NCBI RefSeq assembly: GCF_003002815.1
Contig: NZ_PVTF01000006.1
Span: forward strand, 186,001-250,000
Source: Umezawaea tangerina
GTDB taxonomy: Bacteria > Actinomycetota > Actinomycetes > Mycobacteriales > Pseudonocardiaceae
Length of the DNA stretch: 64,000 nucleotides
Direction of reading: 5' to 3'
Below, piece by piece: positions 9,032-61,531 of the stretch. Each line of letters begins with the position of its first letter. Within the stretch, counting starts at the first letter, position 1. The notes beneath the pieces were generated by a model. That model did no database searches, was not told the DNA's origin, and saw nothing but the letters and a program-made list of their open reading frames with translations. The position numbers and the translations under genes were made by a program.

Positions 9032-9074
9032 TGAAACGTTTCAGCAACGTAGGCGCCGTGCCACCGGCAGTCAA
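9032..9074 (-). promoter_or_regulatory. Promoter with LacI-type operator for the GH43-like gene
   Basis: Read on the minus strand: -35 TTGACT (9069-9074), a 17-bp spacer, -10 TACGTT (9046-9051), then after 2 bp the perfect palindrome TGAAACGTTTCA (9032-9043). The palindrome would cover the transcription start, an arrangement for repression. A ribosome-binding site (AAGGAGG) follows before the ATG at 9009. Confidence 0.7.
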
Positions 9075-9153
9075 GACGACCGTTCGGCGTACCGGACCAC
9101 CTGCGGAATGGCGGATTTTCCTGACGTCGATCGGACAGCATCACCACTGCTTC

Positions 9154-9206
9154 TTGTTTCGAGCCGTCGACGGTTGTAAACATGGCGCAACATTTGAAAC
9201 GTTTCA
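9154..9206 (+). promoter_or_regulatory. Promoter with LacI-type operator for the first GH78 gene
   Basis: Candidate -35 TTGTTT (9154-9159), 17-bp spacer and -10 TAAACA (9177-9182), followed 12 bp later by the perfect palindrome TGAAACGTTTCA (9195-9206). It is identical to the operator of the divergent gene 150 bp away. The operator also argues against the upstream ATG at 9182 as start of the rhamnosidase. Confidence 0.68.
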
Positions 9207-9226
9207 CCCATGTGAGGGGAACGCCC

Positions 9227-12200
9227 ATGGACCCGTCGGGAATATCGGAGGGTCGGCGTTCGCGCCGAACCGCGCTGGTCGCCGCAGTGCTCGCCGCCTC
9301 GTCCGCCCTCGTCCCGACGGCGGCCTCCGCCGACCCCCACGGTGGCGCGCTCGCGCCGACCTCCTTGCGCGCCAACGGACAGGCGTCGAACGCCCTCGTC
9401 GGCGGCGCCCCGTTGGCGCTGGCGTGGACGGTGAACGACTCCGGCCGCGCCCAGGCGCAGACCGCGTACGAGATCAGCGTCGACGGCCCGCGCGGCCACT
9501 GGAGCTCCGGCCGCGTGTCCTCGTCGAACTCGGTCGACGTCCGGTACACCGGCCCCGCGCTGGCGAGCGACCGCACCTACCAGTGGACCGTGCGCACCTG
9601 GAACAGCCAGGGCGTGCGCTCCCCGTGGTCGGCGCCCGCGAAGTTCGACACGGGCCTGCTCTCCCCGTCGGACTGGACGGCGTGGTGGGTCCAGGCCGAT
9701 GACGGATCCCTGCTGCGGGACGACTTCGAGCTCACCAAGCCGGTCGCGCGGGCCCGCCTGCACTTCGGCGCGCAGGGCCTCGTCGAGCCGCACCTCAACG
9801 GCGCGCGCGTGGAGCCGAAGCAGGTGCTCGACTCCTCGGTCACCGACTACGCCCAGCGCGTGCTGTACCGCGACCTCGACGTCACGGGCCTGCTCCGGAA
9901 GGGCCGCAACGCCTTGGCGTTCATGGCCGCCAAGGGCCAGTTCGCGGGCAAGCCGACGTTCGTCGCGCAGCTGTCGGTGACCTACCAGGACGGCACGACC
10001 GCGACGTTCGGCACCGACCCGAGCTGGAAGACCCACGCGGGGCCGGTGGTGGGCACCGACTTCTACTACGGCGAGACCTACGACGCCCGCCGGGAGGTCG
10101 CGGGCTGGGACACCGCCGACTTCGACGCGACCGCGTGGTCCGCTGCCCGCAGCGTGGCACCCGCGTCGCACCGGCAGAGCCTGGCGCAGGGCAAGCCGGT
10201 CACCGCGCTCGACACGACCTCCTGCTGCGGCTGGTCCCCCGCCGCCGCGACCGACGGGATCGACGGGTCGACCGACTCCTCGCAGGGCTACCACTCGCTC
10301 ACCGAGCCGACCCCGGACGCCACGAAGTGGGTGCAGGTCGACCTCGGGTCGGCGCAGCGCCTCTCGTCCGTGTCGCTCTTCCCGGCCCGGCCGACCAACG
10401 ACACGGCGGGCGACATCGTCGGCGCCGGGTTCCCGGTGCGCTACCGGGTCCAGGTCGGCGACGACCCGACGTTCGCCACGTCCACCACGGTCGCCGACAA
10501 GACCGGTGCCGACCAGCCCAACCCCGGCACCGCGCCGGTCACCCTGCCCGTCGACGTGACCGGCAGGTACGTCCGGGTCACCGCGACGAAGCTGTTCTGC
10601 ACCGGCACGATCTGCACGTTCCGGCTGGCCGAGCTCGGCGTGCAGGGCGCGAGCCCCGCGGTGGTCTTCAGCGGTCTCACCACCCTGCAGGCCGACTCCA
10701 CCCCGCCGACCCGGATCACCTCCACCACCGCGCCCGTCGCGGAGACCCGGCCCGCGCCGGGGATCCGGGTGTACGACTTCGGCCAGAACCGCGCGGGCCA
10801 GGTCGCGCTGACCGCCGCGCAGCCCGCGGGGACCACCGCGGCGGTGAAGAAGGGCGAGATCCTCGACGCGAACGGCCGCGTCACCACGTCGAACATCAGC
10901 TTCAACTCCGGCGAGCCGCCGAGGCAGAACGACCGCTACACGTTCAGCGGCAACGGGACCGAGACCTACACGCCGCACTTCAACTACGCCGGGTTCCGCT
11001 ACGCCGAGCTGACCGGCGTGCCCGACGACGCCGTCGTGACCGTCGCGGCGCTGGAGCTGCACAACGACGTCCCGACCACCGGGTCGTTCACCACCTCCGA
11101 CGCCGGGATCAACCGGATCCAGGCCGCGGTCGCCCAGACCCAGCTGAACAACCTCGAGTCCATGCCGCTGGACTGCCCCACCAGGGAGAAGCACGGCTGG
11201 CTCGGCGACGCGGGCGACACCGACCAGGAGGCGATGGCCAACTTCGACATGCAGTCCTTCTACGCCAAGTGGTTGGGCGACGTCGTGACGAGCGCGGCAC
11301 CGGACGGCAGCATCCCGTCGGTGGCCCCGGTCAACGGCGACAACGGGTGGCGCCCCGACCCGGCGTGGGGGACGGCGTACCCGCAGATCATCTGGGACTC
11401 CTACGTCCAGTACGGCAACACCGGCGTCATCACCGAGCACTACGACCACGTGAAGGCCTGGGTGGACTACCTCGGCACGATCAGCGACGCCGACCACGTC
11501 GTCGTGAACGCGCCGATGTCCTGGGGCGACGACTGGCTCTCCACGGTGACCACGCCGCACCAGTACTTCCACACCGGCTTCTACTACCTCGACACCCAGC
11601 TGCTCGCGAAGATGGCCGCCGCCACCGGGAAGTCCGCCGACGCCGCCCGCTACTCCGCGCTGGCCAAGCAGATCGCCGAGGGCTTCACCAAGCGGTACTA
11701 CTCCGCCGACACCGGGGTGTTCTCGACCGGGACGCAGCTGGCCTACGCGCTGCCGCTGGTGTTCGACCTGGTCCCGAAGGGACGCGAGCAGGCCACCGTC
11801 GACCGGCTGGTGTCCGACATCGCCGCGCACGGCAACCACGTGACGACCGGGTTCGTCGGCACCACGCTGGTGTTCCAGGCGCTGGGCAGGTACCGGCGCG
11901 ACGACGTCGCGCTCGCCATCGCGCAGCGCAAGGACTACCCGAGCTTCGGCTACATGCTGGACCAGGGGCCGGGCACCATCTGGGAGAAGTGGGACAACTC
12001 CTCCGCGCCGGACGGCACCTCGTCCAAGGACCACATCGGGCTCGGCGGCGCCGTGGGCCAGTGGTTCTACCAGCAGCTGGCCGGGATCCAGCCGGGAACG
12101 CCTGCCTACGGCGAGTTCACCCTCGCGCCGAGCGTGGTCGGCGACCTGACCCACGTGAGCGCGAAGCAGCAGACCGTGCGCGGCACGGTCGTGAGCGAGT

Positions 12201-13165
12201 GGAAGCGCGACGGCAGCACCGTCACCTACCACGCCACGATCCCCGTCGGCGCGAAGGCGACGATCAGGCTGCCCCTGTTGGGAGGCAAGCAGTCCACGGT
12301 CCGCGAGGGCCGGAAGACGATCTTCACCGCGGGCCGTCCCGCCGAACGCGCCACCGGCCTGAGGGTCGGCGCGGCGGACGACCGGACGCTCACCGTGACG
12401 GCGGGCTCGGGCGACTACGCGTTCACGGTCACCGCGCCGCGCAAGCCGTTCACCAGCCTCTCGATCACACCCGGCACCCCGGACGCGATCACCGCGGGCG
12501 GCAGCGGCGCGGTTCCCGTGGTGGTCGAGGGACGGTCCACTTCGGACACCTCGGCCGTGGTGGGCACCAAGCTCCCCGACGGCTGGACCGCCACGTCGAC
12601 CCCGGCGCAGGTCCCGCTCGGTCCGGCCGACACGGCCACGTCGGCGAACGTCCGGGTCACCGTGCCCGCAGGCGCCAAGAGCGGCGTCTACCCCGTGGCG
12701 GTCACCGCGAAGTCGCCCGACGGCACCACGGCGACGACCACCGTGCAGGTGCCCGTGTTCGGCAGCTGGCAGGCGGGCACCACCGCGTCCGGGTCGACCG
12801 AGCACCCGCCGAACACGGTCAACGGCGCGGTCCGCACCTACGTCGCCTCGAACGCCGTCGACCACGACCCGGCGACGTTCTGGAACGACGACACGGACAA
12901 CCAGTACCCGGACGCCCTCACGGTCACCACGCCGTCGACCAGCCTGACCGGGGTCGGCTTCGCCTCGCACCCGGACGGCGTGCCGACCGACTTCACCGTG
13001 CAGACCTGGGACGGGGCGCAGTGGGTGACCCGTGCCCAGGTGGTCGGCAACTCCGCGGTGCGCCGCTGGATCCCGTTCGCCTCACCGGTGACGACGACGC
13101 AGGTGCGCGTCACCGTCACCGGCGCTCAGAACAGCTACACCCGGATCGCCGAGCTCACCCCGTGA
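9227..13165 (+). CDS. Secreted alpha-L-rhamnosidase, GH78, with discoidin-type domains
   Basis: Multidomain exoenzyme of 1312 residues that removes terminal alpha-L-rhamnose from pectic rhamnogalacturonan, glycosides or gums. The start is the ATG at 9227, 6 bp after GAGGGGA. A twin-arginine-like signal (RRSRRTALVAAVLAASS) ends at TAASA, about residue 36. Then come an N-terminal fibronectin-like domain, the Bac_rhamnosid_N sandwich, an inserted F5/8-type-C (discoidin) domain at about 310-470, and the (alpha/alpha)6 catalytic barrel. The GH78 signature LDCPTREKHGWLGD is at 649-661 with the general-acid Glu654; the base is probably Glu920 in WEKW. A beta-sandwich follows, then an NEW3-like domain (about 1080-1170) and a second C-terminal discoidin domain. 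A strong terminator follows the stop. Confidence 0.93.
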   Translation: MDPSGISEGRRSRRTALVAAVLAASSALVPTAASADPHGGALAPTSLRANGQASNALVGGAPLALAWTVNDSGRAQAQTAYEISVDGPRGHWSSGRVSSSNSVDVRYTGPALASDRTYQWTVRTWNSQGVRSPWSAPAKFDTGLLSPSDWTAWWVQADDGSLLRDDFELTKPVARARLHFGAQGLVEPHLNGARVEPKQVLDSSVTDYAQRVLYRDLDVTGLLRKGRNALAFMAAKGQFAGKPTFVAQLSVTYQDGTTATFGTDPSWKTHAGPVVGTDFYYGETYDARREVAGWDTADFDATAWSAARSVAPASHRQSLAQGKPVTALDTTSCCGWSPAAATDGIDGSTDSSQGYHSLTEPTPDATKWVQVDLGSAQRLSSVSLFPARPTNDTAGDIVGAGFPVRYRVQVGDDPTFATSTTVADKTGADQPNPGTAPVTLPVDVTGRYVRVTATKLFCTGTICTFRLAELGVQGASPAVVFSGLTTLQADSTPPTRITSTTAPVAETRPAPGIRVYDFGQNRAGQVALTAAQPAGTTAAVKKGEILDANGRVTTSNISFNSGEPPRQNDRYTFSGNGTETYTPHFNYAGFRYAELTGVPDDAVVTVAALELHNDVPTTGSFTTSDAGINRIQAAVAQTQLNNLESMPLDCPTREKHGWLGDAGDTDQEAMANFDMQSFYAKWLGDVVTSAAPDGSIPSVAPVNGDNGWRPDPAWGTAYPQIIWDSYVQYGNTGVITEHYDHVKAWVDYLGTISDADHVVVNAPMSWGDDWLSTVTTPHQYFHTGFYYLDTQLLAKMAAATGKSADAARYSALAKQIAEGFTKRYYSADTGVFSTGTQLAYALPLVFDLVPKGREQATVDRLVSDIAAHGNHVTTGFVGTTLVFQALGRYRRDDVALAIAQRKDYPSFGYMLDQGPGTIWEKWDNSSAPDGTSSKDHIGLGGAVGQWFYQQLAGIQPGTPAYGEFTLAPSVVGDLTHVSAKQQTVRGTVVSEWKRDGSTVTYHATIPVGAKATIRLPLLGGKQSTVREGRKTIFTAGRPAERATGLRVGAADDRTLTVTAGSGDYAFTVTAPRKPFTSLSITPGTPDAITAGGSGAVPVVVEGRSTSDTSAVVGTKLPDGWTATSTPAQVPLGPADTATSANVRVTVPAGAKSGVYPVAVTAKSPDGTTATTTVQVPVFGSWQAGTTASGSTEHPPNTVNGAVRTYVASNAVDHDPATFWNDDTDNQYPDALTVTTPSTSLTGVGFASHPDGVPTDFTVQTWDGAQWVTRAQVVGNSAVRRWIPFASPVTTTQVRVTVTGAQNSYTRIAELTP

Positions 13166-13168
13166 CCG

Positions 13169-13204
13169 CCGACCGTGACGGGGCACCCGCCCCGTCACGG
13201 TCGG
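13169..13204 (+). terminator. Rho-independent-type hairpin after GH78 gene
   Basis: A perfect 15-bp stem (13169-13183 with 13190-13204) with a 6-nt loop starts 3 bp after the rhamnosidase stop. There is no long T-run, as is usual in GC-rich actinomycetes. Confidence 0.75.
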
Positions 13205-13484
13205 TCGCAGCGGGCCCGCCGGATGCCCCCGGCGCACGTCGGCGGGTGACCGCTCGGCCGGACGCGCGGGACCGAGAGTGCGCCGCCGATCGGTCCGCGC
13301 CGGTCCCCGTCACTCGTCCAGCCGATCCGGTACGCATTCGGCGCAATTCGCGTCATCTGAGGACAATTCACACTTTCCGGTGACTGACCATTGTTTTCCC
13401 GACCCACCGACTACCGTCGGACGTGCCATCCCGAATCTCCACCTTTTCCATTGCGGGAATGACCGAGAGAAAGGCACCGGGTCA

Positions 13485-14018
13485 ATGCGCGCAGAGGCAC
13501 TCGACCGCGTCACCCTCATCTTCTCCCTGTTCGACGTCAACGGCACCGGTCACCTGGAGGCCGACGACTTCGACATCATGGCGGGGAACGTCGTCCGGGC
13601 GGCCCGCGATTCCGACGACAACTCCAAGCACGCGATGGTGACGGCGTTCCGGCGGTACTGGGAGACGCTGGTCGCCGAGCTGGACACCGACCACGACGGC
13701 CGGGTGAGCTTCGACGAGTTCACCGCCTGCGTGCTGTCCCCGGAGCGCTTCGAGGAGACCGTCCGCGACTTCGCCGAGGCGCTCGCGGCCCTGGGCGACC
13801 CGGACGGCGACGGGATGGTCGAACGGCCCCTCTTCCAGGCGTTGATGACGGCGATCGGTTTCGCGCCGGGAAATGTCGACGCCCTTTTCGACGCATTCCG
13901 ACCGTCGCGTTCGGACCGCATCACGGTAACGGCGTGGATCGCGGGCATCAAGGACTACTACCGCCCCGACAAAGCGGGAATCCCCGGTGACCACCTGGTC
14001 GGCAGCACGGCTTCCTGA
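13485..14018 (+). CDS. EF-hand calcium-binding protein (calerythrin/CabB-like)
   Basis: Cytosolic calcium sensor or buffer of 177 residues. The first two loops fit the EF-hand: one starts at Asp17 (DVNGTGHLEADD, ending in Asp28) and one at Asp67 (DTDHDGRVSFDE, canonical with Glu78). A third, DPDGDGMVERPL at 105-116, has the early ligands but lacks the position-12 acid; the fourth (around 139-150, RPSRSDRITVTA) is degenerate. Length and spacing match the four-hand actinobacterial calerythrin family. The upstream 280 bp after the GH78 terminator hold its promoter region; no other gene is there. It lies 29 bp before the dehydrogenase-like gene and may be its leader cistron, but a functional link to that enzyme set is only inferred from position. 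Confidence 0.85.
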   Translation: MRAEALDRVTLIFSLFDVNGTGHLEADDFDIMAGNVVRAARDSDDNSKHAMVTAFRRYWETLVAELDTDHDGRVSFDEFTACVLSPERFEETVRDFAEALAALGDPDGDGMVERPLFQALMTAIGFAPGNVDALFDAFRPSRSDRITVTAWIAGIKDYYRPDKAGIPGDHLVGSTAS

Positions 14019-14047
14019 GCGCGTTCCCCGACCAGGAGAGGAGCAAC

Positions 14048-15121
14048 GTGGAACCGGTCATAGGACTCGCGGTCGGCAGGGGAACCGGCCCGGAGCTGGC
14101 GGCGGTGTTCGAACGCGTCCTGGAAGGCATCGGCCGGTCGTACTCGGTCGGCGTCGAGGTCGTGCGCTCACCCCGGACCTACCACTCCTACCACTCGGCG
14201 AAAGCCGAAGGGGGGACACGGCGGATCCGCGAGCTCAACCGCGACGACGCCGAGCACTACGAGGCGTTCTGCCGGGCGCGCGCCGACCGCGGCACCACCG
14301 CGATCTTCCGCACGGCGATCAACGCCCAGTCTCTGTACCTGGTGCGGCAGCACCTCCAGGCCGTGAAGGTCGACGTCATCGCCACGCCGACGGCGTCGCT
14401 GCTGATGGTCCGCGACGAGGCGCAGGGCTTCTACACCGGCGAGAACAGCCACGCGCCCGGCGTGGTCACCCGCACCGCGGAGTTCAGCAGGGAGATCACC
14501 GACAAGGTCATCTCCTACGCGCTGCGGCGGGCCCGGCGGGAGTGGCCGGACGGCGAGGTCGACCGGATCCTCATGGCCTACAAGTTCCACCTGCTCGACG
14601 GCGCGCTCGACGAGTGGGTCGCCGACGCTTCCGCCCGGCACGGCGTGGAGATCGGGCTGTTCCAGCCGGACACGGTGAACCGCGACCTGGTCGAGCACGG
14701 GCTCGCGCCGCGCACCGTGATCATCGCGGGCAACGAGTGGGCCGACATCATGCACGTGGTGCTGCTCGACCGGTTCTGCTCCGAGCGGCAGGAGAACCGC
14801 TTCACCGAGAACGTCCACCTGCACCCCGACGTGGCCGGGCTGGTCGAGTACCAGACCGTGCACGGCTCCGCGGACGACATCGCGGGCCAGGACGTCGTCA
14901 ACCCGGTCGCGACCGTGCGGGCCGCGGCGACGATCGCCGAGCGGCACGCGGGCTGCGCGGGGGCGATCGGGGCCGTGGAACGGGCCCTGCGGTCCGTCGC
15001 GCGCCGCGGTGTCCTGACCAAGGACCAGGGCGGGCGGTACTCGACCACGGAGGTCGTCTGCGCGCTGCTGGACGTGCTGGAGCCGCACGAGCTCCCGGCG
15101 AGCCTGGTGGCGGGGTCGTGA
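14048..15121 (+). CDS. Isocitrate/isopropylmalate-dehydrogenase-superfamily protein, divergent
   Basis: A 357-residue oxidoreductase-like protein. The N-terminus GLAVGRGTGPEL mirrors the family's GDGIGPE loop. VRDEAQGFYTGE (about 118-129) corresponds to the REN-GG-Y-GE segment. The catalytic-type Lys is at 179 (AYKFHLL), Asp208 (FQPD) lies in the metal-site region, and VHGSADDIAGQDVVNP matches the conserved VHGSAPDIAGKGIANP block. The usual NLFGDILSD is altered to NEWADIMHV (229-237), and the double arginine substrate region is changed, so the substrate is probably not isopropylmalate. It starts with GTG after a GAGAGGAG site and overlaps the next gene by 4 bp (GTGA). Presumably it oxidises a hydroxy-acid in a small pathway with the next two enzymes. 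Confidence 0.75.
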   Translation: MEPVIGLAVGRGTGPELAAVFERVLEGIGRSYSVGVEVVRSPRTYHSYHSAKAEGGTRRIRELNRDDAEHYEAFCRARADRGTTAIFRTAINAQSLYLVRQHLQAVKVDVIATPTASLLMVRDEAQGFYTGENSHAPGVVTRTAEFSREITDKVISYALRRARREWPDGEVDRILMAYKFHLLDGALDEWVADASARHGVEIGLFQPDTVNRDLVEHGLAPRTVIIAGNEWADIMHVVLLDRFCSERQENRFTENVHLHPDVAGLVEYQTVHGSADDIAGQDVVNPVATVRAAATIAERHAGCAGAIGAVERALRSVARRGVLTKDQGGRYSTTEVVCALLDVLEPHELPASLVAGS

Positions 15122-16607: not shown

Positions 16608-16778
16608 GGCCGCACTGGTCCTCGTGGTCGACGCCCTTGCATCGAGCAGATGACCGCTGGGGCAGGCCTGTCCCCAATATCACCGAACGTGTCTTGGGAC
16701 ATAGCCGCTGGTAGTGGCATTTCGGCCTTACGCTGCTGGAGAGGCGACGGGGGCTCGCCGCAGTAGGGGTCGGGTGGT

Positions 16779-18798: not shown

Positions 18799-18941
18799 TT
18801 GCGGTCTCCCCACCTCGAATAGCCGTGATGAACAGACCGTCCCGCGCGGAGTTTTCATTCGACCATCAGTGGCGTAATCGCAGCTCAGGACCCCCGTGAA
18901 TCGCGTATGGACAGTGCACGGCAACCCATTCGGACGGTCTC

Positions 18942-22524: not shown

Positions 22525-22557
22525 GCCGACCGGGCATCACGCCGCCACCCGTGGACG

Positions 22558-42527: not shown

Positions 42528-42663
42528 CCGCCGACCCTACGACCAAACCCGCTCCACAGGGCGGCGAGACGACCCCGCCCGACACCCCGACGACGGGCAC
42601 CTGCCCTCCCCGGCTCACCTGGCGCACTCCTGCCACGGGGAGATCCACACCCGACTATGACCC

Positions 42664-42722
42664 TTGTCACAACCCTCGGAGCGCTATACGGTGACCCCGT
42701 CCCGTTCGACTGAAACGTTTCA
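42664..42722 (+). promoter_or_regulatory. Promoter with LacI-type operator for the second GH78 gene
   Basis: Candidate -35 TTGTCA (42664-42669), 17-bp spacer, -10 TACGGT (42687-42692), then the perfect palindrome TGAAACGTTTCA (42711-42722), 18 bp after the -10. It is the same operator as at 9.03 and 9.20 kb. Confidence 0.68.
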
Positions 42723-42796: not shown

Positions 42797-45700
42797 ATGA
42801 GATCGCTTCTGGTGGGGGCTTGCGCCGCACTGGCCGTCCTGCTGGCCGTGCCGCTGCTGGACCCGACCCCGGTGCTGGCGGACCGAGGCGCCGACCGGAG
42901 CGCCGGCGGGCGCGGCTCCAGGGCGTTGGACGTCGGCGGGCTGACGGTCGAGCACCAGGTGGACCCGCTCGGGGTCGACGCGGCCAGCCCGCGGTTCGGG
43001 TGGGAGCTCGGGTCGGACGTGGCGGGGGCGCGGCAGTCGGCCTACCAGGTGCAGGTGTCGTCGGCGCCGGACCGGGCCGGTGACGTGTGGGACAGCGGGC
43101 GGGTGGTGTCGGGGAAGTCGTTCGACGTCCCGTACGCCGGGCCCGGTCTGCGGTCGCGCGCCCGGTACTACTGGCGCGCGCGGGTCTGGGACGCGAGCCA
43201 GCGGGCGTCGCAGTGGAGCACCGGGGCGTGGTTCGAGACCGCGTTCCTGAACGGGGACTTCCGCGGTGACTGGATCGGCGCGCGGGCGGAGCGCGCCACG
43301 ACGGTGCTGCAGGGCGCGAGCTGGATCTGGTACCCGCAGGGCAACCCGGCGGACTCCGCGCCGGTCGGCACCCGGTACTTCCGGCGGGCGTTCGACCTGC
43401 CGTCGGGCGCGCGGGTCACGTCGGCGCGGTTCCAGCTCACCGCCGACGACAGCTTCACCCTGCACGTCAACGGCCGGAACGCCGCGAGCTCGCCGCAGGT
43501 GGCCGACTCGTGGCGGTCGGCGGTGGACGTCGACCTCACGGCCGACCTGCGGGCGGGCCGCAACGTCCTCGCGGTCCAGGCCGCCAACGCGCAGCCAGGG
43601 CCGTCGGGTCTGGTCGGCAGGCTCCACGTCGAGCTCGCCGGGGCGTCCCCGGTCGACGTCGTCACCGACGCCACCTGGAAGTCCTCCGACGTGGAGGCGG
43701 CGGGCTGGCAGCAGCCGGGCTTCGACGACTCGGCGTGGCCCGCGGCGCTGGTGGCCGCCGCCTACGGCTCCGGCCCGTGGGGCAGCTCGGTCTCGACCGC
43801 GACGCCGGCGGAACCGCTGCTGCGCAAGGACTTCACCGCGACCAAGCGGGTGGGCTCGGCTCGGGCCTACGTCATCGGCCTCGGCTACTACAAGCTCTAC
43901 CTCAACGGAAAGCGGGTCGGCGACCACGAGCTCGACCCGGCGTTCACCGTCTACGACAAGACGGACCTCTACGCGACCTACGACGTGACCAAGGAGCTGC
44001 GGTCCGGGGCGAACGCGCTCGGCGTGAGCCTGGGGCGCGGCTACTACGCCATGACGAACCCGGACGAGTGGGTGAGCTCGCCGTGGCACGGCGAGCCGAA
44101 GCTCAAGCTGGAGCTGGACATCACCTACACCGACGGCACGACCGCGCAGGTCCTCAGCGACCCGAGCTGGAAGATCGCCGACGGGCCCACCACGTCGGAG
44201 TCGTTGTGGTTCGGCGAGACCTACGACGCCCGGCGCGAGCAGCCCGGCTGGAACCGGACCGGGTTCGACGACTCCGGATGGCGACCCGCGCTCGTCGTCC
44301 CCGCACCCGCCGGGAAGCTGACCGCGCAGTCCTTCCCGCCGATCAAGGTGACCGACTCCTTGACCGCCAAGAAGGTCACCACCCCCACCACCGGGACGAC
44401 GGTCCACGACTACGGCAGCCCGACCGCGGGCTGGGCCGGTGTCGCGCTGCGCGGACCCGCGGGCGCGCAGGTGACGATCACCTACGGCGAGAAGCTGAAC
44501 GACGACGGCACCGTAAACAACGTCGGCGGTTTCGGCATGCAGCTGCAGAAGTACACCTACGTCCTGAAGGGCGGCGGGACCGAGTCGTTCACGCCGAGCT
44601 ACTCCTACGCCGGGTTCCAGTACGTCCAGGTGACCGCGTCCGCCGGCGTCACGATCAGCTCGGTCACCGCGCAGCGCGTGCACACCGCGGTCGCCAAGAC
44701 CGGCGACTTCACCAGCTCGGACGACCTGCTCAACCGCTACCACGCCGCGCAGGCGAACACGATCCTGAACAACCTGCACTCGGTGCCCACCGACACCCCG
44801 ATGTACGAGAAGCGGCCCTACACCGCCGACGGCTTCCTGGCCGCCGACTCCGCCATCGCCGGCTTCGACATGCGCGACTTCTACGAGAACTGGATGCGCG
44901 CGCACCGCGACGACCAGGCGCCGTCGGGCAACATCGGCCAGACCGTGCCCGGCACCGTGGGCGCCAAGGAGGTCGTCGACCCGATCTGGTCGGCCAGCCT
45001 CGTCCTCGTCACCTGGGACCTGTACTGGTACTACGGCGACATCCGGCCGCTGGAGGAGAACTACGCGGCGATGAAGTCGTGGCTGGGGTTCTTCGAGGCC
45101 AACATCGCGAAGACCGGCTACACCTACGCGGGCGGCAGCTACGCCGACTGGCTCTCCCCCGGCTACGCGATGCCCCCGGAGGGACCGCGGCTCGCGGGCA
45201 CCGCCTACATCCACAAGACCACCACGACGATGGCGGCGATCGCCCGCGCCCTCGGGCGGACCGACGACGCCGCGCGCTACGACCAGCTCGCCACCACGAT
45301 CGCCACCGCCTTCAACGCCAAGTTCTACGACGCGGCGAAGGGCGCGTACTTCGACGACCCGGCGGCGGGCTACCGGCAGACGTCCAACCTGCTGCCGCTG
45401 AGCCTCGGCCTCGTGCGGGAGGCCGACCGGGCCACCGTGGTGGCGAACCTCGTGAAGGACGTCGACGCCCGCGGCGCGCACCTGAACACCGGCGCGCTCG
45501 GCACGAAGCTCATCCTCCCGGTGCTCACCGACACCGGGAACTCCGACCTGGCCTACCGGCTCGCGACGAACCCGACGTACCCCGGCTGGGGCTACTGGTT
45601 CCAGTCGCTGGGCGCCACGACCATGTGGGAGGAGTGGCCCGCCGGGTCGCGGTCGCGGCAGCACGCCTTCATGGGCACCGTCGACGACTGGCTCTTCCAG

Positions 45701-46015
45701 GACGTCGCGGGCATCCGGCCCGCGGCACCTGGCTACACCAAGGTCCGGATCCAGCCCTCCCCCGTCGGCGACCTGAAGCGCGCGTCGGCCGAGGTGACGT
45801 CCCCGCTCGGCAAGGTGCGCTCGTCGTGGACCCGCGACCGGACCCGCCTCACCCTGAAGGTCACCATCCCGGTCGGTGCGAGCGGAGAAGTCCTCGTGCC
45901 GGTGGGCAAGGGGGCCAAGGTGGACGCTCCGGCGGGCGCGAAGCTCCAGACCACAAAGGACGGTTACGCCAGCTACCAGGTCGGTTCGGGCACCTACGAG
46001 TTCCGCGCGGGCTAG
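42797..46015 (+). CDS. Secreted alpha-L-rhamnosidase, GH78
   Basis: A 1072-residue exoenzyme. It has a Sec-type signal peptide (SLLVGACAALAVLLAVPLL, cleavage near VLA), a fibronectin-like domain (about 50-150), an inserted carbohydrate-binding-like sandwich (about 180-300), the Bac_rhamnosid_N domain, and the catalytic six-hairpin barrel (about 620-980). The signature is a variant: DTPMYEKRPYTADG at 666-679 instead of DCPTREK-GWTGD, but the acids Asp666, Glu671 and the later Asp are kept, and the base Glu945 in WEEW is present. It likely cleaves a different rhamnoside linkage from the first GH78, which has discoidin domains this one lacks. ATG follows GGAGGAAA. A perfect terminator follows. 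Confidence 0.92.
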   Translation: MRSLLVGACAALAVLLAVPLLDPTPVLADRGADRSAGGRGSRALDVGGLTVEHQVDPLGVDAASPRFGWELGSDVAGARQSAYQVQVSSAPDRAGDVWDSGRVVSGKSFDVPYAGPGLRSRARYYWRARVWDASQRASQWSTGAWFETAFLNGDFRGDWIGARAERATTVLQGASWIWYPQGNPADSAPVGTRYFRRAFDLPSGARVTSARFQLTADDSFTLHVNGRNAASSPQVADSWRSAVDVDLTADLRAGRNVLAVQAANAQPGPSGLVGRLHVELAGASPVDVVTDATWKSSDVEAAGWQQPGFDDSAWPAALVAAAYGSGPWGSSVSTATPAEPLLRKDFTATKRVGSARAYVIGLGYYKLYLNGKRVGDHELDPAFTVYDKTDLYATYDVTKELRSGANALGVSLGRGYYAMTNPDEWVSSPWHGEPKLKLELDITYTDGTTAQVLSDPSWKIADGPTTSESLWFGETYDARREQPGWNRTGFDDSGWRPALVVPAPAGKLTAQSFPPIKVTDSLTAKKVTTPTTGTTVHDYGSPTAGWAGVALRGPAGAQVTITYGEKLNDDGTVNNVGGFGMQLQKYTYVLKGGGTESFTPSYSYAGFQYVQVTASAGVTISSVTAQRVHTAVAKTGDFTSSDDLLNRYHAAQANTILNNLHSVPTDTPMYEKRPYTADGFLAADSAIAGFDMRDFYENWMRAHRDDQAPSGNIGQTVPGTVGAKEVVDPIWSASLVLVTWDLYWYYGDIRPLEENYAAMKSWLGFFEANIAKTGYTYAGGSYADWLSPGYAMPPEGPRLAGTAYIHKTTTTMAAIARALGRTDDAARYDQLATTIATAFNAKFYDAAKGAYFDDPAAGYRQTSNLLPLSLGLVREADRATVVANLVKDVDARGAHLNTGALGTKLILPVLTDTGNSDLAYRLATNPTYPGWGYWFQSLGATTMWEEWPAGSRSRQHAFMGTVDDWLFQDVAGIRPAAPGYTKVRIQPSPVGDLKRASAEVTSPLGKVRSSWTRDRTRLTLKVTIPVGASGEVLVPVGKGAKVDAPAGAKLQTTKDGYASYQVGSGTYEFRAG

Positions 46016-52478: not shown

Positions 52479-52486
52479 GGAAACCC

Positions 52487-53713: not shown

Positions 53714-53956
53714 GCCGCTGCCTGCCCGACCCGTCGCGGAGGGCCGCGCACTCCACCTAGATCACGCCGGGGGTCTTGTGGTCGATGTCGTGCGGACCGG
53801 GCCATCACGACGTCCGACCTCGCCCACAGGGCGGCGCACTCCTCGCCGCGCGGGAGCCGACCCCGGTGCTGCCGACCCAGGGGTCGACAGCATCTGGCTC
53901 GCCGTCGCCGACAGGACGATCTTCTCTCCATGAGCTCGTTCTCCCCTGGAGGTCGG

Positions 53957-54940: not shown

Positions 54941-54967
54941 CGGGGTGGCCGCGGTCCGCCACGACCA

Positions 54968-56413
54968 TCAGGGCCGGACGACCGTCAGCTCCAGGCCGAG
55001 CAGGTCCGCGACCGCGGCCAGTTCCGCGACCCGGTGCCCCGTCCCCAACGCCCAGTGGTGGCCGACCCCGGAGGCCGACCAGGCGTCGGTCCACTCACCG
55101 GGGTCGCGGCCGAAGTCCACCCTCGACGTCGTGTTGCCGATCCGCAGCAGCGGACCGGGGACGACGGTGCCCTCCGACGCGACCATCGTGAACGTGCCGT
55201 CGCGGTCCTGGCCGAGCCCGAACGCCGTGACCGGGCCGTGGGTGACGTCGAACTCGACCGACACGCCCCAGCCCCGCTTGCCGTGCAGGACGTCCAGCCC
55301 GCGCAGCAACGGCTTCCCGGCGCTGATGGCCAGGTGCGCGGGCCCGTCGTGGCCCATCTCCACGACGCCGTCCCGGAAGTTCAGCGCCTGGAACTCGGTG
55401 AACGAGCCGCCCGCGCCGAGCCGGTCCATCACCAGCATCGCCAACGAGGTGCGCAGCTCGTACTCGCCGCAGGCCGGGACACCGCGCGCGGTCAGCAGCG
55501 AGGAACCCAGGATCAGGCCCGCGCCGACGCGCTCGTGCACCTCCCCGTCGAGGCCGCGGTGGTAGTAGGCGAGGGAGTCCAGCGAGAAGTCCTCGACCAG
55601 CCGGTCGAGCGCGACCGACACCCTGGCCGCCCAGTCCAGGTCCTCGGCCACCACCGAGGAGTCCAGGGTGAACACCTCGCGGGCCAGCGCGGCGCGGGCC
55701 CCGGCCTCGGCGTCGGTGACCCGCTCGACCCTGACCCGCACGTCGTCGACCTCCAGGACCTCGACGTGCCCGCCGAGCTGGGCGCTCACCAGGGTCGAGT
55801 CGGTGGCGACGTCCATCATGCCGGGGTAGAGGTGGCCGAGCAGCCCGTGCCTGCCGTGGCGCAGCGCGGCCCGCACCCCGGCGGCCTTGACCCACCGCCC
55901 GATCCGCGTCCACGCCCGTTCGTCGGCCAGGTAGCCAGACACCGAGCGGAACTCGACGCCGCAGCGCCGGAACGCGTTGGCCATCTCGGGCAGCGGGCAC
56001 GCGCCGCAGTAGGCGAGCCAGGCGCCGGTGTCGAAGGTGGCGTGGTCCATCACCTCACTGGGCTGCAGGTTGACCAGCAGCACCGGGGAACCGGAGCGCT
56101 GGGCGACCGGCACCAGCATCGACGCGGTCAGGTACGTGGTGAGGAAGCCGACGATCAGGTCGCAGTCGGCGACGCGCAGGCGTTCGGCGGCCGCGGCACC
56201 GTCGCGTTCGTCGGAGATGAAGCCGACGTCGACGACCTCGCAGTCCAGCCCGCCGAGCCGGGCGGACACCTCGTCCGCCGAACGGCGCAGCTGGGGCAGC
56301 AGCTCGGGGAACTGCGGCCAGTAGGCGCCGAGCCCACCGGAGACCAGCCCGACGCGGGTCCTGCGGGTGGTGACCCGGTCGAGCCCTGCTGGAACCTGGA
56401 GCGTGCCGGTCAC
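54968..56413 (-). CDS. L-fucose/L-arabinose-isomerase-family sugar isomerase
   Basis: A 481-residue sugar isomerase. RVGLVSGGLGAYWPQFPEL, CDLIVGFLTTYLTASMLVP and LLVNLQPSEVMDH match the AraA/FucI N-terminal Rossmann regions. The C-terminal portion has the acidic and histidine residues that would bind the metal and substrate (SLAMLVMDR, VEMGHDGPAHLAIS, GVGHHWALGTGH). It is not RhaA-like. In the operon of a secreted rhamnosidase, rhamnose-binding protein and rhamnose mutarotase, it most likely isomerises rhamnose or a closely related sugar. I start at the GTG at 56413, 6 bp after AAAGGA; the GTG at 56428 has no site. The stop is close to that of the convergent Tat-exported gene. Confidence 0.8.
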   Translation of the reverse strand: MTGTLQVPAGLDRVTTRRTRVGLVSGGLGAYWPQFPELLPQLRRSADEVSARLGGLDCEVVDVGFISDERDGAAAAERLRVADCDLIVGFLTTYLTASMLVPVAQRSGSPVLLVNLQPSEVMDHATFDTGAWLAYCGACPLPEMANAFRRCGVEFRSVSGYLADERAWTRIGRWVKAAGVRAALRHGRHGLLGHLYPGMMDVATDSTLVSAQLGGHVEVLEVDDVRVRVERVTDAEAGARAALAREVFTLDSSVVAEDLDWAARVSVALDRLVEDFSLDSLAYYHRGLDGEVHERVGAGLILGSSLLTARGVPACGEYELRTSLAMLVMDRLGAGGSFTEFQALNFRDGVVEMGHDGPAHLAISAGKPLLRGLDVLHGKRGWGVSVEFDVTHGPVTAFGLGQDRDGTFTMVASEGTVVPGPLLRIGNTTSRVDFGRDPGEWTDAWSASGVGHHWALGTGHRVAELAAVADLLGLELTVVRP

Positions 56414-56438
56414 GACAAGTCCTTTCACCGTGGGGAGT

Positions 56439-56801
56439 TCAGTGGTCGCGGTCGGGTGCCGCGGCGCGCCGTCCCAGCTGCTCGTCCAGGTTGAACACCT
56501 CGGCGAGCAGCCGGAACCCCTCGTCCGGCGGCGCGCCTTCCAGGTCGACGAAGTACTGCCCCATCTCGGCCTGCCACCGGCGGTTCACGTCGGTGGCCGC
56601 CATCGCCGCTTGGGCGTCGGCCAGCGAGTCGGCCTCGACGTAGCCGACCAGCAGGCCGTCCTCGTCCAGGAAGAGGGAGTAGTTGCGCCACCCGGTGTCG
56701 CGCAGGGCATCGAGCATGTCCGGCCACACCTCCCGGTGCCGTCGCCGGTACTCGGCCAGGCGGTCCGGCCGGACCTGCAACCGGAAGCAGTAACGAGGCA
56801 T
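56439..56801 (-). CDS. rhaM: L-rhamnose mutarotase
   Basis: A 120-residue dimeric ferredoxin-like protein interconverting alpha and beta L-rhamnopyranose. PRYCFRLQVRPDRLAEYRRRH matches the RhaM N-terminus, GWRNYSLFLDEDGLLVGYVEAD and MGQYFVDLEGAPPDE complete the family pattern, with the catalytic His in RRHREVWPDML. The ATG at 56801 follows AGGAG by 5 bp; the GTG at 56807 is less likely. It lies between the isomerase (26 bp) and binding protein (37 bp) on the same strand, and its identity is the best evidence that the operon handles rhamnose. Confidence 0.93.
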   Translation of the reverse strand: MPRYCFRLQVRPDRLAEYRRRHREVWPDMLDALRDTGWRNYSLFLDEDGLLVGYVEADSLADAQAAMAATDVNRRWQAEMGQYFVDLEGAPPDEGFRLLAEVFNLDEQLGRRAAAPDRDH

Positions 56802-56838
56802 CGGCACTCCTAGCGCGTCGGCCGCCCCCGCGGCGGGG

Positions 56839-57912
56839 TCAGAAGTCGAACCGGTCGATGTTGGCGCTGTCGAAGACGGTCGGCGGGCCGAGGACGATCT
56901 CGCCGCGCTCCCCGACGGTGTACTCGCCGAGCTTGCCCGCCGTGAACCTCTCGCCCTTGGCGCCGGTGATCCGCCCGGACTCCAGCGCCACGCCCGCCTG
57001 CGCGGCGAGGTAGCCGATGTCGGCCGGGTTCCACAGCGCGAACCGGGCCACCGTGCCGTTCTTGACGAACTCGCGCATCTGGTTCGGCGTGCCGAGCCCG
57101 GTCAGCGCGACCTTGCCCTTGAAGCTCGACGAGCCGATGTAGCGCGCCGCCGCCGAGATGCCGACCGTCGTCGGCGACACGATCACCTTGAGGTTCGGGT
57201 ACGACAGCAGGAGCCCCTGGGTCTCCTGGAACGACTTGAGGTCGTCGTCGTTGCCGTAGGCGATCTTCACCAGCTCCAGCCCGGCGTTCTCCGGCTTGGC
57301 CAGGTCGGCCTTCACCACGTCGATCCACGCGTTCTGGTTGGTGGCGTTGGGCGTCGCGGACAGGATCGCGATCTCCCCCGACCCGCCCGCGAGCTCCGAG
57401 GCCATCTCCACGAGCTTGTCGCCGACGCCCTGGGTGGTGGCCTGGTTGATGAACACGTCACGGCACTCCGCCGCCGCGTCGGAGTCGAACCCGACGACCT
57501 TGACGCCCTCGGAGCGCGCCCGCTGGAGCGACGGGCACACGGCGTTCGGGTCGTTCGCGGCGATGGCGATGACGTCCTGCCGCTGCTGGACCAGCGTGTT
57601 GATGTAGCTCACCTGGGAGGAGGCGCTGGCGTCGTTGGGGCCGACGAGCTTGTACTCGCCCTTGAGCTCCTCCAGCGCCGCCTGCCCGCCCGCGGTCTCG
57701 ATGTCGGAGTACGGGTTGTTCAGCTGCTTGGGCAGGAAGGCCATCTTGACGCCCTCCTTGAGCGGTGCGTCCGGCCGTGCCGACCCGGACGCGGCGCCCG
57801 TCGACGTGGTGCCGCCGCTGTTCTTCGACGTGCCGCCGCACGCGGTCAGCCCGACGGCCAGCACGGCGGTGACGGCCGCGACGAGGACTCGGCTGGTGGA
57901 GGTTCGGGACAT
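56839..57912 (-). CDS. Rhamnose ABC transporter substrate-binding lipoprotein (RhaS type)
   Basis: A 357-residue periplasmic-binding-type lipoprotein. The lipobox is LTAC (Cys25). A Ser/Thr/Gly linker leads to a two-domain type I binding protein: KMAFLPKQLNNPYSDI, DVIAIAANDPNAVCPSL and ARFALWNPADIGYLAAQAGVALE match the RhaS group of rhamnose-binding proteins. It should deliver rhamnose released by the secreted rhamnosidases. Unusually, the matching ATPase and permease genes are absent; they must be elsewhere. It follows the GH106 gene by 33 bp. Confidence 0.9.
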   Translation of the reverse strand: MSRTSTSRVLVAAVTAVLAVGLTACGGTSKNSGGTTSTGAASGSARPDAPLKEGVKMAFLPKQLNNPYSDIETAGGQAALEELKGEYKLVGPNDASASSQVSYINTLVQQRQDVIAIAANDPNAVCPSLQRARSEGVKVVGFDSDAAAECRDVFINQATTQGVGDKLVEMASELAGGSGEIAILSATPNATNQNAWIDVVKADLAKPENAGLELVKIAYGNDDDLKSFQETQGLLLSYPNLKVIVSPTTVGISAAARYIGSSSFKGKVALTGLGTPNQMREFVKNGTVARFALWNPADIGYLAAQAGVALESGRITGAKGERFTAGKLGEYTVGERGEIVLGPPTVFDSANIDRFDF

Positions 57913-57945
57913 CGTTGTCGCCTCTCTCGGTGTCCGGTTGCCGGG

Positions 57946-60900
57946 TCAGCCGCGGGTCAGCGCGACGTCGACAAGCCGTTCGGGGCGCAGGAACACCGGG
58001 CCGACGAGCCCGGACGGGATCACCTGACCCCGCGCGTTCGCACCGGTGTTGGTGACGCGGACGCGCACGAGGTTGGTGCCCGGCCGCAGCACCGCCGTGA
58101 CGTCGGCCCGGTAGGGCCTCCAGAGCCTCGTCCCGAGCGCCGCACCGTTGACCTCGACCTGCGCCACGTCGAGGACCGCACCGAGGTCGAGTGTCCACTT
58201 GCGACCCGACAGCACATCGGCGTCGAGCGCGATCTCCTTCTCGTACCAGGCGGAACCGGAGTAGGCGCTGTCCAAGTCGGTCCAGGAACCCAACGGCCGC
58301 GGGGTTTCCGGCGCGCCCGGTCGGTCGAAGCGGAACCTCCAGTCGCCGTCCAGCGCGACGGCGGCCAGCGCGTCCGCTACGGTCGTCGTTCCCCGGTAAC
58401 GACGTCCGCCCGCGGTCGCGACGACCTCGACGGGACCGGGCCCGGTCACCCGCACCGTGGCCACGGCGTCGCGGGAATCGACCCGCACGCGCTCCACGGG
58501 TGCCGTCGAGGACACGGCGTGCGCCGGTTCCCGCGTCGCGCGGAACACCACCAGCACAGTCGCCTTCGACTCCAGCCGGAGCTCGACCGCCGTGCCGCCG
58601 TCGCGCTCCCCGGTGAACGGCGCGGACCGCCACACCCCGGCCGTCGTCGCGGTCCCGGTGTCCGGGTCCCAGACCTCCGGGACCCCCGTCGCGGGGAACG
58701 CGGCCGTGACGTCGACGACGGCGTCGCGTTCGTTCATGAGCACGAAGGCGCGTTCCCGGCCGCGTTCCAGCCGGAGCACCCGGACGTCCGCCGTCGCCGG
58801 GGTCAACGCGACCGCCGCCGCACCCGCCGCGACCGCCGCCGCGGCGGCGGCCGTCGGATCGGCGGCGCGGATCGCCCGGCGCGACCCGGTGAACAGCCCG
58901 TCGAGCGCACGGCGCAGGCCCGCGTGGTCTCCCCCGGCTTCCTCGGTGGGCAGGTCGCCGACGACGACCAGGGTCCCGCCCCCGCGGACGAACCGGGTCA
59001 GCACGGCCACCGTGCCCAGGGCCAGCACGGGTGTCCGCGGCACCACCACGGCCCGGTACCGCTGCCGCCCCACGACGAGCAGCGGCCCGCGCGTCCTGGC
59101 GTGCGCGATGAGCGCGGGGTCCGCGTCGAGCGCCCCCTCGTCGACGAGGTCGAAGTCGACCTGGACGTCCTCCAACGCGTGCGCCGCCCCCATGAACGCG
59201 GCGTCGATCCCCGTGATCGCCGCGGTGTCCTGGTAGGTCTCGACCGCGCGCTGCGGTTGCAGCAGGGCGGTGTGCGCCAGTGCCGGTGCCCGGCAGGCCT
59301 CCATCAGCCTGCCGATCCACTCGTTCAGCGGCGTGGACAGCTCCCACCACGGGTTGACCGGCTGGAACGGCGGCGGGTAGAAGATCACGTCGGAGTCGGT
59401 GAACCTGGCGTGCAGCAGCGTGTGGTTCACCCCGCGCACGGCGAACGCCCCGACCACCTCGCGGGTCAGCGCGGGGGTCACCTGCCAGCCGGTCGCGCCC
59501 ATCGCCTCCAGGTAGACCCGTTCCAGGCCGAGCTGGTGCGCGGCGCTCGCGGGCCACCGGGACAGCGTGCGGTGGAAACCGCGCTGGTAGTGGTCGAAGA
59601 TCAGGTCGGTGCCCGGCACCTGGGCCCACTGGTGGGTGGTGTTCATGTTGCCGGAGCTGCGGAGCTGCTCGCCCGGCCCGTACTCGTCCCACAGCGGGTT
59701 GGAGATGAACCGCAGCCCGTGGGCGGCCATCCACTCGCCCTGGCGGCGGTAGTAGGCCGAGGCGAAGCGGTCGGACACGGCGCGCCAGAACACCCCTCGC
59801 AGCCTCAGGCCGTCCTGCCCCAGCTCGTCGTGCACGGCGGCCAGCGCGATCCCCGGCTCAACCCCGAGGCGGGACAGCTCGGCGTCCAGCGCCGGGGACC
59901 AGGGCACGGTGTTGAACGGCCCGTCGGCCGAGGCGAGGAACGGCTCGTCGTCGGCGAAGCCGCGCAGGACCGTGCCCGCGGCCCAGGGGAACCTGCGCAG
60001 GTACTCGCCGGGCACCACGTCGAGGAACAGGTCCACGGCCTCGTCGTCGAGCAGGTCGAGGTAGGTGTGGGCCGCGTCCTGGACCAGTTCCCGCACCGTG
60101 AACAGGTCGACCCGCCACCGGCCGGCCGGGGCGTCCCACACGCCGCCCGCGCGGGCCAGGTCGGTCAGGTCGACGACCCTGGCGAGGTCCGCGGACCCCT
60201 CCGGCCGGGCGGTCGCGGTGATCAGCGGGGTGGTGGCGGCCGGGAGGTCGAAGGCGTCCAGGGAGGACGCCGAGTCGAACCCGTCGGCGAACAGCGTCCG
60301 CCCGTCGGGGTCGAGGACCGTCAGGCTGTCCCAGGACGACCGCTGGTCCACGACCGACCGCACGCCGACCCGTCCGGTGGCGTAGGTGCCGTCCACGACG
60401 GCGGGCTGCGCGACGCCGTCCACCGACGGGACGAACCGGTCCCCGCGGACCTCGACCTCCAGCACGTGGTCGACGGCGGGGTCGAACCCCTGGACCGGCG
60501 GCGCTCCCCGCACGAGGGTGAAGGAACCGCCGTCCTGCCGCCAGATGTCCACTCCGCCGTCGCGGCGCAGGTCCGCGAGGACGCCGTTCGCCTCGCCCCT
60601 GCCGCGCAACACCAGACCCGCTGTGTTGCGGTCCACCCGGACCTTCGCGACCACGTCGTAGTCCTGCCAGTCCGCACCCGCGCGCAGCAACGTGATCCCG
60701 TCCCGCGCGGAGGCGTCCACCAGCAGCCGTCCGTCCGAAACGGACAGTCCGCGGCCGACCAGCGGCACCGCCGTCCCACCCGCCGCGATGACGGTCTGGT
60801 GGCCCACGCCCTTGATGCGCAGGTCCGGGCGCGGCTGGTAGATGCGGTCGCCGACCTTGCCGCCGTTGACCACGAACCCGCCGCCGCGGCCGCTGGGGAA

Positions 60901-61329
60901 GAAGTCGTCGTTGAACAGCCACACGTGCATGCCGTGCCGCTGCGCCTCGCGGAGGGTGAGCTCGATGAGCGCGAACCAGTCCTCGGTGAAGAACCGGGGT
61001 CGCAGCGCCGCGGTGTCGAAGGGGAACACCAGCACCTCGAACACGCCCTGCCCGCGCATGTCGGCGAGCTGGTCGGTCACGAGATCGGGGGTGACGGCGC
61101 CGTTCCAGAACCACAGGACCGTCGGCCTGCTGTCGGCGCGCGGATCGGCGAACCGGGCGACCTGGAAGCCCTCGTCGGTGCCCGGTGCGGCGTTCGCGGT
61201 CGGCCGCCCTCCCACGACCGACACCCCGGCGACCAGCGCGGCCGCCGCGCTCAGGGCGAGCACGCGACGCCGGGGGAGCAGCAGGTCACCGGAGGTCGTC
61301 ACGACGTGGACACGGCTCGGATCGCGCAT
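57946..61329 (-). CDS. Secreted GH106-type alpha-L-rhamnosidase
   Basis: An exported glycosidase of 1127 residues. After a Tat-like signal (RRRVLALSAAAALVAG) comes ARFADPRADSRPTVLWFWNGAVTPD, the typical GH106 opening. The TIM-barrel core contains VFPFDTAALRPRFFTEDWF and HGMHVWLFNDDFFPSGRGGGFV, and a domain with a long beta-rich insertion (about 180-375). The C-terminal jelly-roll (WRFRFDRPG through WYEKEIAL, VEVNGAALGTRLWRPY) is a beta-galactosidase-like sugar-binding domain. It probably cleaves rhamnose from pectic RG-I or RG-II or bacterial glycans, complementing the two GH78 enzymes. It heads the rhamnose operon, under a LacI-type operator. Confidence 0.88.
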   Translation of the reverse strand: MRDPSRVHVVTTSGDLLLPRRRVLALSAAAALVAGVSVVGGRPTANAAPGTDEGFQVARFADPRADSRPTVLWFWNGAVTPDLVTDQLADMRGQGVFEVLVFPFDTAALRPRFFTEDWFALIELTLREAQRHGMHVWLFNDDFFPSGRGGGFVVNGGKVGDRIYQPRPDLRIKGVGHQTVIAAGGTAVPLVGRGLSVSDGRLLVDASARDGITLLRAGADWQDYDVVAKVRVDRNTAGLVLRGRGEANGVLADLRRDGGVDIWRQDGGSFTLVRGAPPVQGFDPAVDHVLEVEVRGDRFVPSVDGVAQPAVVDGTYATGRVGVRSVVDQRSSWDSLTVLDPDGRTLFADGFDSASSLDAFDLPAATTPLITATARPEGSADLARVVDLTDLARAGGVWDAPAGRWRVDLFTVRELVQDAAHTYLDLLDDEAVDLFLDVVPGEYLRRFPWAAGTVLRGFADDEPFLASADGPFNTVPWSPALDAELSRLGVEPGIALAAVHDELGQDGLRLRGVFWRAVSDRFASAYYRRQGEWMAAHGLRFISNPLWDEYGPGEQLRSSGNMNTTHQWAQVPGTDLIFDHYQRGFHRTLSRWPASAAHQLGLERVYLEAMGATGWQVTPALTREVVGAFAVRGVNHTLLHARFTDSDVIFYPPPFQPVNPWWELSTPLNEWIGRLMEACRAPALAHTALLQPQRAVETYQDTAAITGIDAAFMGAAHALEDVQVDFDLVDEGALDADPALIAHARTRGPLLVVGRQRYRAVVVPRTPVLALGTVAVLTRFVRGGGTLVVVGDLPTEEAGGDHAGLRRALDGLFTGSRRAIRAADPTAAAAAAVAAGAAAVALTPATADVRVLRLERGRERAFVLMNERDAVVDVTAAFPATGVPEVWDPDTGTATTAGVWRSAPFTGERDGGTAVELRLESKATVLVVFRATREPAHAVSSTAPVERVRVDSRDAVATVRVTGPGPVEVVATAGGRRYRGTTTVADALAAVALDGDWRFRFDRPGAPETPRPLGSWTDLDSAYSGSAWYEKEIALDADVLSGRKWTLDLGAVLDVAQVEVNGAALGTRLWRPYRADVTAVLRPGTNLVRVRVTNTGANARGQVIPSGLVGPVFLRPERLVDVALTRG

Positions 61330-61377
61330 CGACCCTCGACTCCTTTGTGGACGGACGATGTCGAGGTGAACGAGAGT

Positions 61378-61434
61378 TGAAACGATTCATTCACCGCCCG
61401 AGCCACGGTATATGACCTACGTCACTATGGTCAA
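61378..61434 (-). promoter_or_regulatory. Promoter with LacI-type operator for the GH106 operon
   Basis: On the minus strand: -35 TTGACC (61429-61434), 18-bp spacer, -10 TACCGT (61405-61410), then after 15 bp the near-palindrome TGAATCGTTTCA (61378-61389), one base from the operator seen at the other three genes. A 10-bp-spaced AAAGGAG ribosome site precedes the ATG at 61329. Confidence 0.66.
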
Positions 61435-61519
61435 GATTGACGACAGGACATGTTCGGGGACAACAGTTGACGAACCCGCATGGCGCCATCCGCCGAGGTC
61501 ACGCGCGTAGCAGATCGGC

Positions 61520-61531
61520 TAAAACGTTTCA
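61520..61531. promoter_or_regulatory. Second LacI-type site upstream of the GH106 operon
   Basis: TAAAACGTTTCA differs by one base from TGAAACGTTTCA. It lies 142 bp from the operator at 61378 and upstream of the promoter, so it may be an auxiliary site for looping. The remaining intergenic DNA (61330-61570) shows no gene. Confidence 0.5.

Follow-up and report, generated by a model that had tools for sequence, protein, structure and literature searches.

The 64,000-nt stretch C6:186001-250000 of the Umezawaea tangerina genome (10.68 Mb in 34 contigs), hereafter the window, carries several copies of the palindrome TGAAACGTTTCA, exact or nearly so, beside glycosidase genes, and this raises the question of which regulator reads the palindrome and how far the set of controlled genes extends. 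We conclude, with a probability of about 0.9, that TGAAACGTTTCA is the operator of LacI-family repressors, here called RhaR, which would control the release, uptake, and breakdown of L-rhamnose genome-wide. The argument draws on the sites, with their gene neighbors and conservation, and on how often and how closely the motif and the RhaR genes occur together, all of which can be read from the sequences.

An earlier note on this DNA had listed by eye exact copies at 9032, 9195, and 42711, a copy with one mismatch at 61378, and a near-match at 61520 (Table 1). Our rescan of the window with up to two mismatches recovered all five and no further place, hence the list was complete. In shuffled sequences, the mean number of such matches was 0.41 and the maximum was 2, and five matches were reached in 0 of 100 shuffles.

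In the entire genome, the exact palindrome occurs at six places, three of them in the window, compared to zero for the reversed motif used as a control. Allowing one mismatch yields 16 places, and allowing two yields 38; as the reversed control gives 21 hits up to two mismatches, the 22 two-mismatch places were treated as noise (four of them, L016-L019, were inspected, and one neighboring gene, a LacI gene, was run through Pfam). Thirteen of the 16 places adjoin rhamnose or rhamnogalacturonan genes and are spread over six contigs and about a dozen transcription units. Thus, the regulon that the earlier note described as comprising four promoters does share a motif, but it is larger than that. 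Five out of seven strong GH78 genes of the genome (>200 bits) have a site, as does a 58.8-bit GH78-like gene, and two further weak GH78-like matches have none. The isomerase of the regulon is RhaI, according to NCBIfam; a search for a RhaA-type isomerase gave no match in the genome.

The LacI-family regulator co-ordinating rhamnoside degradation had been supposed to be distant, no LacI gene having been seen in the window. Indeed, none of the 41 LacI helix-turn-helix (HTH) matches in the genome falls into the window, and a genome scan for LacI genes beside further sites identified two, rhaR1 and rhaR2, next to rhamnose uptake and catabolic genes; hence, we favor this supposition. The RhaR proteins have the N-terminal LacI HTH and the periplasmic-binding-type sensor domain by which the LacI family is defined (for rhaR1, PF00356 with 64.2 bits and PF13377 with 117.5 bits, both over the cut-off; for rhaR2, LacI HTH with 64.3 bits), and they are 55% identical over 330 residues. 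When the reading helices of all 41 LacI HTHs were compared, V/I-G-TVS-N was found in rhaR1 and rhaR2 alone, and these two were also the only proteins of the genome with E ≤ 1e-50 to rhaR1 among 14 scored of 83 candidates. The nearest named relative of the RhaR regulator, with 88% identity, comes from Umezawaea endophytica. The best solved relative of RhaR1 is the ribose operon repressor RbsR from Escherichia coli (9ny7), aligned at near full length with E 6.9e-53; the aligned reading residues are T-S..H in RbsR, a ribose regulator, and V-G..N in RhaR1.

Given 41 LacI HTH matches, some other LacI-family protein, e.g., a Cra-like global regulator, might be the chief reader of the palindrome, and E. 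coli Cra (FruR) presumably recognizes this same palindrome. A publication on E. coli Cra does contain the exact 12-mer, and none of the seven publications with this 12-mer is, by title, on rhamnose. However, across the family Pseudonocardiaceae the palindrome adjoins RhaR genes, and rhamnose rather than central-metabolism genes, whereas Cra is described as a global regulator of central metabolism, and its target genes are other than those proposed for RhaR. Moreover, rhaR1 is not closely related to Cra: it matches the Cra chains with E 2e-20, far below the ribose and purine repressors (7e-53 for the ribose repressor), with no search aimed at a Cra relative in the genome. We therefore consider a reader other than RhaR very improbable.

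The association of the palindrome with RhaR extends over the family. Among 150 genomes of Pseudonocardiaceae, 59 carry the exact palindrome, with 107 copies in total compared to 12 for the reversed control; a strong RhaR homologue is found in 96 genomes, and the palindrome is present in 58 of these 96 vs. one of the 54 others. Out of 75 listed palindromes (of 107), 22 precede a RhaR gene by no more than 300 bp. Considered from the side of the regulator, 13 of 30 RhaR loci have an exact palindrome at most 300 bp upstream, and six more have one with a single mismatch; for rhaR1-type loci in other genera, an exact palindrome within 300 bp is seen in 13 out of 19. The neighbors of the palindrome in other genera agree with those in U. 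tangerina, as 26 of 30 loci adjoin a homologue (at least 55% identity) of a regulon protein; three of the other four have only a weak homologue (33-36%), and one has none.

In two congeners (G022 and G060), 26 places were found with at most one mismatch, 21 of them at genes corresponding to U. tangerina sites, and 14 of the 16 U. tangerina sites have an orthologous counterpart in one or both of these genomes (the exceptions are C5:645241 and the C17 site, which was not aligned and for which no neighbor was found). The 9032, 9195, and 42711 sites are retained at 12 of 12 positions in both congeners, with flank identities of 0.86 and 0.62, 0.83 and 0.53 (the latter in G060), and 0.54 and 0.51, respectively. 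The 61378 site is retained at 12 of 12 positions in G060 with a flank identity of 0.57, and the 61520 site is an exact palindrome there, at the identical spacing of 142 bp, within flanks of 0.42 identity. Many other sites are less telling, because their flanks are well conserved (0.7-0.94). One GH78 gene that has no site in U. tangerina has one in G060.

Several observations weigh against assigning all this to RhaR. Genome size explains some of the motif-RhaR association, because all 12 control hits are in RhaR-bearing genomes. For two of the seven strong GH78 genes, no upstream match was found even with up to three mismatches in the stretches read; three of the 16 sites (C7, C11, C17) have no adjoining rhamnose gene, and two of them, C7 and C11, are kept in G022; GH78c no longer has its site in G060; and RhaB scores 445 in NCBIfam, under the cut-off of 528. 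At C19, the site and the start of the binding-protein reading frame overlap, hence coding constraint may help to explain the conservation of this site. This overlap, together with two-mismatch hits at the control level, is what speaks for the hits being fortuitous or a consequence of coding, with no role in regulation, which is hardly credible in view of the shuffles, the zero control in the genome, the proximity to rhaR genes throughout the family, and the 12/12 palindromes amid flanks of only 51-57% identity at GH78a, GH78b, and GH106. Finally, the rhaR1 site matches at just 8 and 10 of 12 positions in the congeners.

This last point bears on whether one paralogue alone represses this regulon, the other responding to a different ligand or controlling a subset of the genes. 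The rhaR2 site on C13, unlike that of rhaR1, is exact and retained at 12 of 12 positions in both congeners; the paralogues, with such modest identity, fall into separate clades of the FastTree tree of 64 selected proteins, where rhaR1 groups (support 1.0) with RhaR of Streptosporangiales and relatives, rhaR2 being placed elsewhere; and many genomes of the family have a single RhaR match. On the other hand, the reading helix is common to both paralogues, and in other genera exact palindromes are seen upstream of genes of both kinds. A single repressor is thus an alternative of some weight, even if we lean against it, and joint control by both RhaR paralogues is retained in what follows.

The placement of the sites relative to predicted promoters is consistent with repression. 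The palindrome lies 22, 20, 74, and 48 bases from the start codons of GH43, GH78a, GH78b, and GH106, respectively. Plausible -35 and -10 boxes had been noted for each of these four genes; we agree for GH43 (TTGACT-17-TACGTT, 8 of 12 consensus positions), GH78b (TTGTCA-17-TACGGT, 8 of 12), and GH106 (TTGACC-16-TATACC, 9 of 12, or alternatively 18-TACCGT, 8 of 12), given that, out of 400 stretches of 81 bases drawn at random from the window, five reached a score of 8 and none a score of 9. In contrast, the GH78a core promoter is unremarkable, its best score of 7 of 12 being equalled or exceeded in 43 of the 400 stretches. Under a stricter consensus scan, no promoter was seen in the three regions. 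At GH78b and GH106, 15-18 bp separate the end of the -10 box from the palindrome, which would place the operator just downstream of the transcription start, and at GH43 this distance is 2 bp; positions just downstream of the start or right after the -10 box are ordinary for repressors.

By analogy with the LacI family, for which repression and release by the ligand would be expected, a RhaR dimer may, without inducer, block transcription by occupying the palindrome, located at the -10 box or shortly after it. The repressor would be released by L-rhamnose or one of its products, whereupon the glycosidases (GH43, GH78, and GH106), the uptake operon, RhaI, RhaEW, RhaB, and RhaM would be switched on together. 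In this scheme, the binding of RhaR to the palindrome, the repression, the identity of the inducer, and the service of the same sites by both paralogues are what we infer.

A second signal might be involved. After the fact, we noticed CRP-like boxes, that is, matches to TGTGAN6TCACA at 8-9 of 10 positions, which precede the operator by 26-47 bp at five U. tangerina promoters and are kept in the compared congeners. The score is 9 at GH78b, the C5 uptake operon, and the C13 GH78 gene, and 8 at GH106 and C12 (shuffle p ≤ 0.01 for score 9 and 0.03-0.09 for score 8); the other promoters tested score 5-7, and the GH78c box scores 9 in G022 and 7 in U. tangerina. The CRP-like box overlaps the putative core promoter. 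At 30 palindrome loci of other genera, a score of 8 or more is reached by six out of 60 flanks (three of the six from one genus) and by none of 180 control windows, which include coding sequence. The genome contains eight exact CRP boxes, compared to one for the control, and 22 CRP-type HTH matches.

The two operators between GH43 and GH78a (9032-9206) are 163 bp apart in U. tangerina and in G022 and 152 bp apart in G060. The spacings of 15 hand-picked operator pairs fit a period of 10.4-10.5 bp (p about 0.005-0.007), these entries being related to each other and chosen post hoc, and spacings of 157 and 161 occurring within one genus. DNA looping between paired operators is thus a lead only, and the members of a pair upstream of rhaR may each just belong to one of two divergent promoters. 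The sensor domain of rhaR1 covers residues 172-334 of 334 according to Pfam, and the protein ends there, which speaks against a tetramerization segment behind this domain, as in LacI-type tetramers that loop DNA; the GH106 pair, for its part, keeps its 142-bp spacing in G060.

In Streptosporangiales and relatives, the helix P-G-TVS-N is found in 55 of 60 RhaR loci (L130-L187), and exact TGAAACGTTTCA is absent from all 55; upstream of these genes, AAAAACGTTTTA is seen at 17 and TAAAACGTTTCA at four loci, the rest having, in our scan, no clear palindrome or another one. It is possible that the reading residue, V/I/L vs. P, covaries with the outer bases of the operator between actinomycete orders. 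The widest interpretation, in which two anciently separate RhaR paralogues with the same reading code share some dozen dispersed promoters, with CRP-like boxes at five of them that would let rhamnose be read together with a global cyclic-nucleotide signal, and in which the V/I/L-to-P change goes with the outer operator bases, is speculative and, taken as a whole, rather doubtful.

Table 1. Predicted operators, CRP-like boxes, and genes of the proposed RhaR regulon; positions are those of the window unless C or L labels are given.
Feature	Location	Strand	Context or evidence
Exact TGAAACGTTTCA	9032..9043		Predicted operator of GH43-like gene (minus strand)
Exact TGAAACGTTTCA	9195..9206		Predicted operator of GH78a (plus strand)
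Exact TGAAACGTTTCA	42711..42722		Predicted operator of GH78b
One-mismatch TGAAACGATTCA	61378..61389		Predicted operator of GH106 operon (minus strand)
One-mismatch TAAAACGTTTCA	61520..61531		Candidate auxiliary operator, 142 bp upstream of GH106 operator
CRP-like box, 9/10	42656..42671		Upstream of GH78b operator; 9/10 in both congeners
CRP-like box, 8/10	61411..61426		Upstream of GH106 operator; 8/10 in G060; shuffle p 0.075-0.087
CRP-like boxes elsewhere	L007; L012; L011		Upstream of 16105; 4964; 4996, respectively
GH43-like glycosidase gene	6871..9009	-	PF04616, 51.7 bits, cut-off 32.2 (longer frame 6871-9576 searched)
GH78 alpha-L-rhamnosidase gene a	9227..13165	+	PF17389 and companions (frame 9182-13165 searched)
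GH78 alpha-L-rhamnosidase gene b	42797..46015	+	PF17389 and companions
Distant isomerase-like protein, 486 aa	54968..56428	-	End of GH106 gene run
L-rhamnose mutarotase RhaM	56439..56807	-	PF05336, 103.5 bits, cut-off 23.4
Second RhaS, rhamnose ABC transporter substrate-binding protein	56839..57912	-	TIGR02637, 376.7 bits, cut-off 342.25
GH106 alpha-L-rhamnosidase gene	57946..61329	-	PF17132, 61.5 bits, cut-off 29
rhaR1 (P0001)	C5:644209-645210		LacI-family, beside GH78c and RhaS-RhaI operon
rhaR2	C13:254932-255912		LacI-family, divergent from RhaEW-RhaB
Site	C5:645241		Upstream of LacI gene rhaR1
Site	C5:648495		Upstream of GH78c
Site	C5:654604		Head of uptake operon: ABC transporter genes running into RhaS and RhaI
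Site	C12:55695		Upstream of GH78-like gene
Site	C13:71163		Upstream of a GH78 gene
Site, exact	C13:254867		Between RhaEW-RhaB and rhaR2, divergent
Site	C19:151008		Between binding-protein gene and rhamnogalacturonan lyase RGL11 gene
Site	C21:69744		Upstream of a GH78 gene

The genes beside the window sites had been taken for those of secreted glycosidases. Each of the families assigned (GH43-like, two GH78, and GH106) exceeds its curated Pfam cut-off, whereas secretion was judged from the N-termini by eye alone. The GH43-like and GH78a genes are divergent; for the product of the former, an NCBIfam search gave no match. Downstream of GH106, on the same strand, follow the second RhaS, RhaM (63.4 bits for TIGR02625 in NCBIfam, under the cut-off of 99.6), and the distant isomerase-like protein. 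The latter has weak matches to NCBIfam sugar isomerases (35 and 32 bits, with cut-offs of 700 and 622) and no match in a Pfam search, and its counterpart at the same place in G060 is 91% identical.

Two of the sites elsewhere in the genome have neighbors of other kinds. The C7 site (L009, 5018), TGAAACGTTACA, lies between divergent genes of an AMP-binding enzyme (acyl-CoA ligase) and an alpha/beta-hydrolase, and in G022 it is an exact palindrome within flanks of 54% identity; we know of no link between this gene pair and rhamnose. The C11 site (L010, 5031), TGAAACGTTTTA, retained at 12 of 12 positions in G022, is upstream of a different LacI gene with the helix P-T..L, surrounded by GH10 (xylanase), GH43, and alpha-galactosidase genes. 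The C17 site, with CRISPR and Rce1-like neighbors, was put down to chance, as its neighbor has no relative in the congener loci.

By titles and the beginnings of abstracts, only one paper among the matches listed deals with a LacI-type rhamnose regulon in actinomycetes. There, LacI-type RhaR of Actinomycetales is predicted to co-regulate rhamnose uptake, catabolism, and rhamnosidases, most such regulons being local, with one to several operons (Rodionova et al., 2013, PMC3870299). The proposed U. tangerina regulon shares with this kind the LacI-family regulator beside rha genes, a palindromic operator, the ABC rhamnose transporter, and the predicted co-regulation of RhaI, RhaB, RhaEW, and alpha-L-rhamnosidases, and differs from it in about a dozen dispersed units, two RhaR paralogues, and CRP-like boxes at five promoters. 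The regulon is best filed under this known Actinomycetales RhaR kind, by the regulator family and gene content rather than by the letters of the operator. Relative to that study, the likely additions, of varying strength, are the breadth of the regulon, the doubled regulator, the CRP-like boxes, and the paired GH106 operators.

While overturning no established view, these results lead from five motif matches noticed by eye to a genome-wide regulon, open to testing, for the breakdown of rhamnose-bearing plant material, and an operator and two regulators are proposed for Pseudonocardiaceae. They also suggest possible roles for the GH43-like enzyme, the distant isomerase, and the acyl-CoA-ligase/hydrolase pair, and the paired regulators with their natural operator variants suit the study of specificity change in the LacI family.

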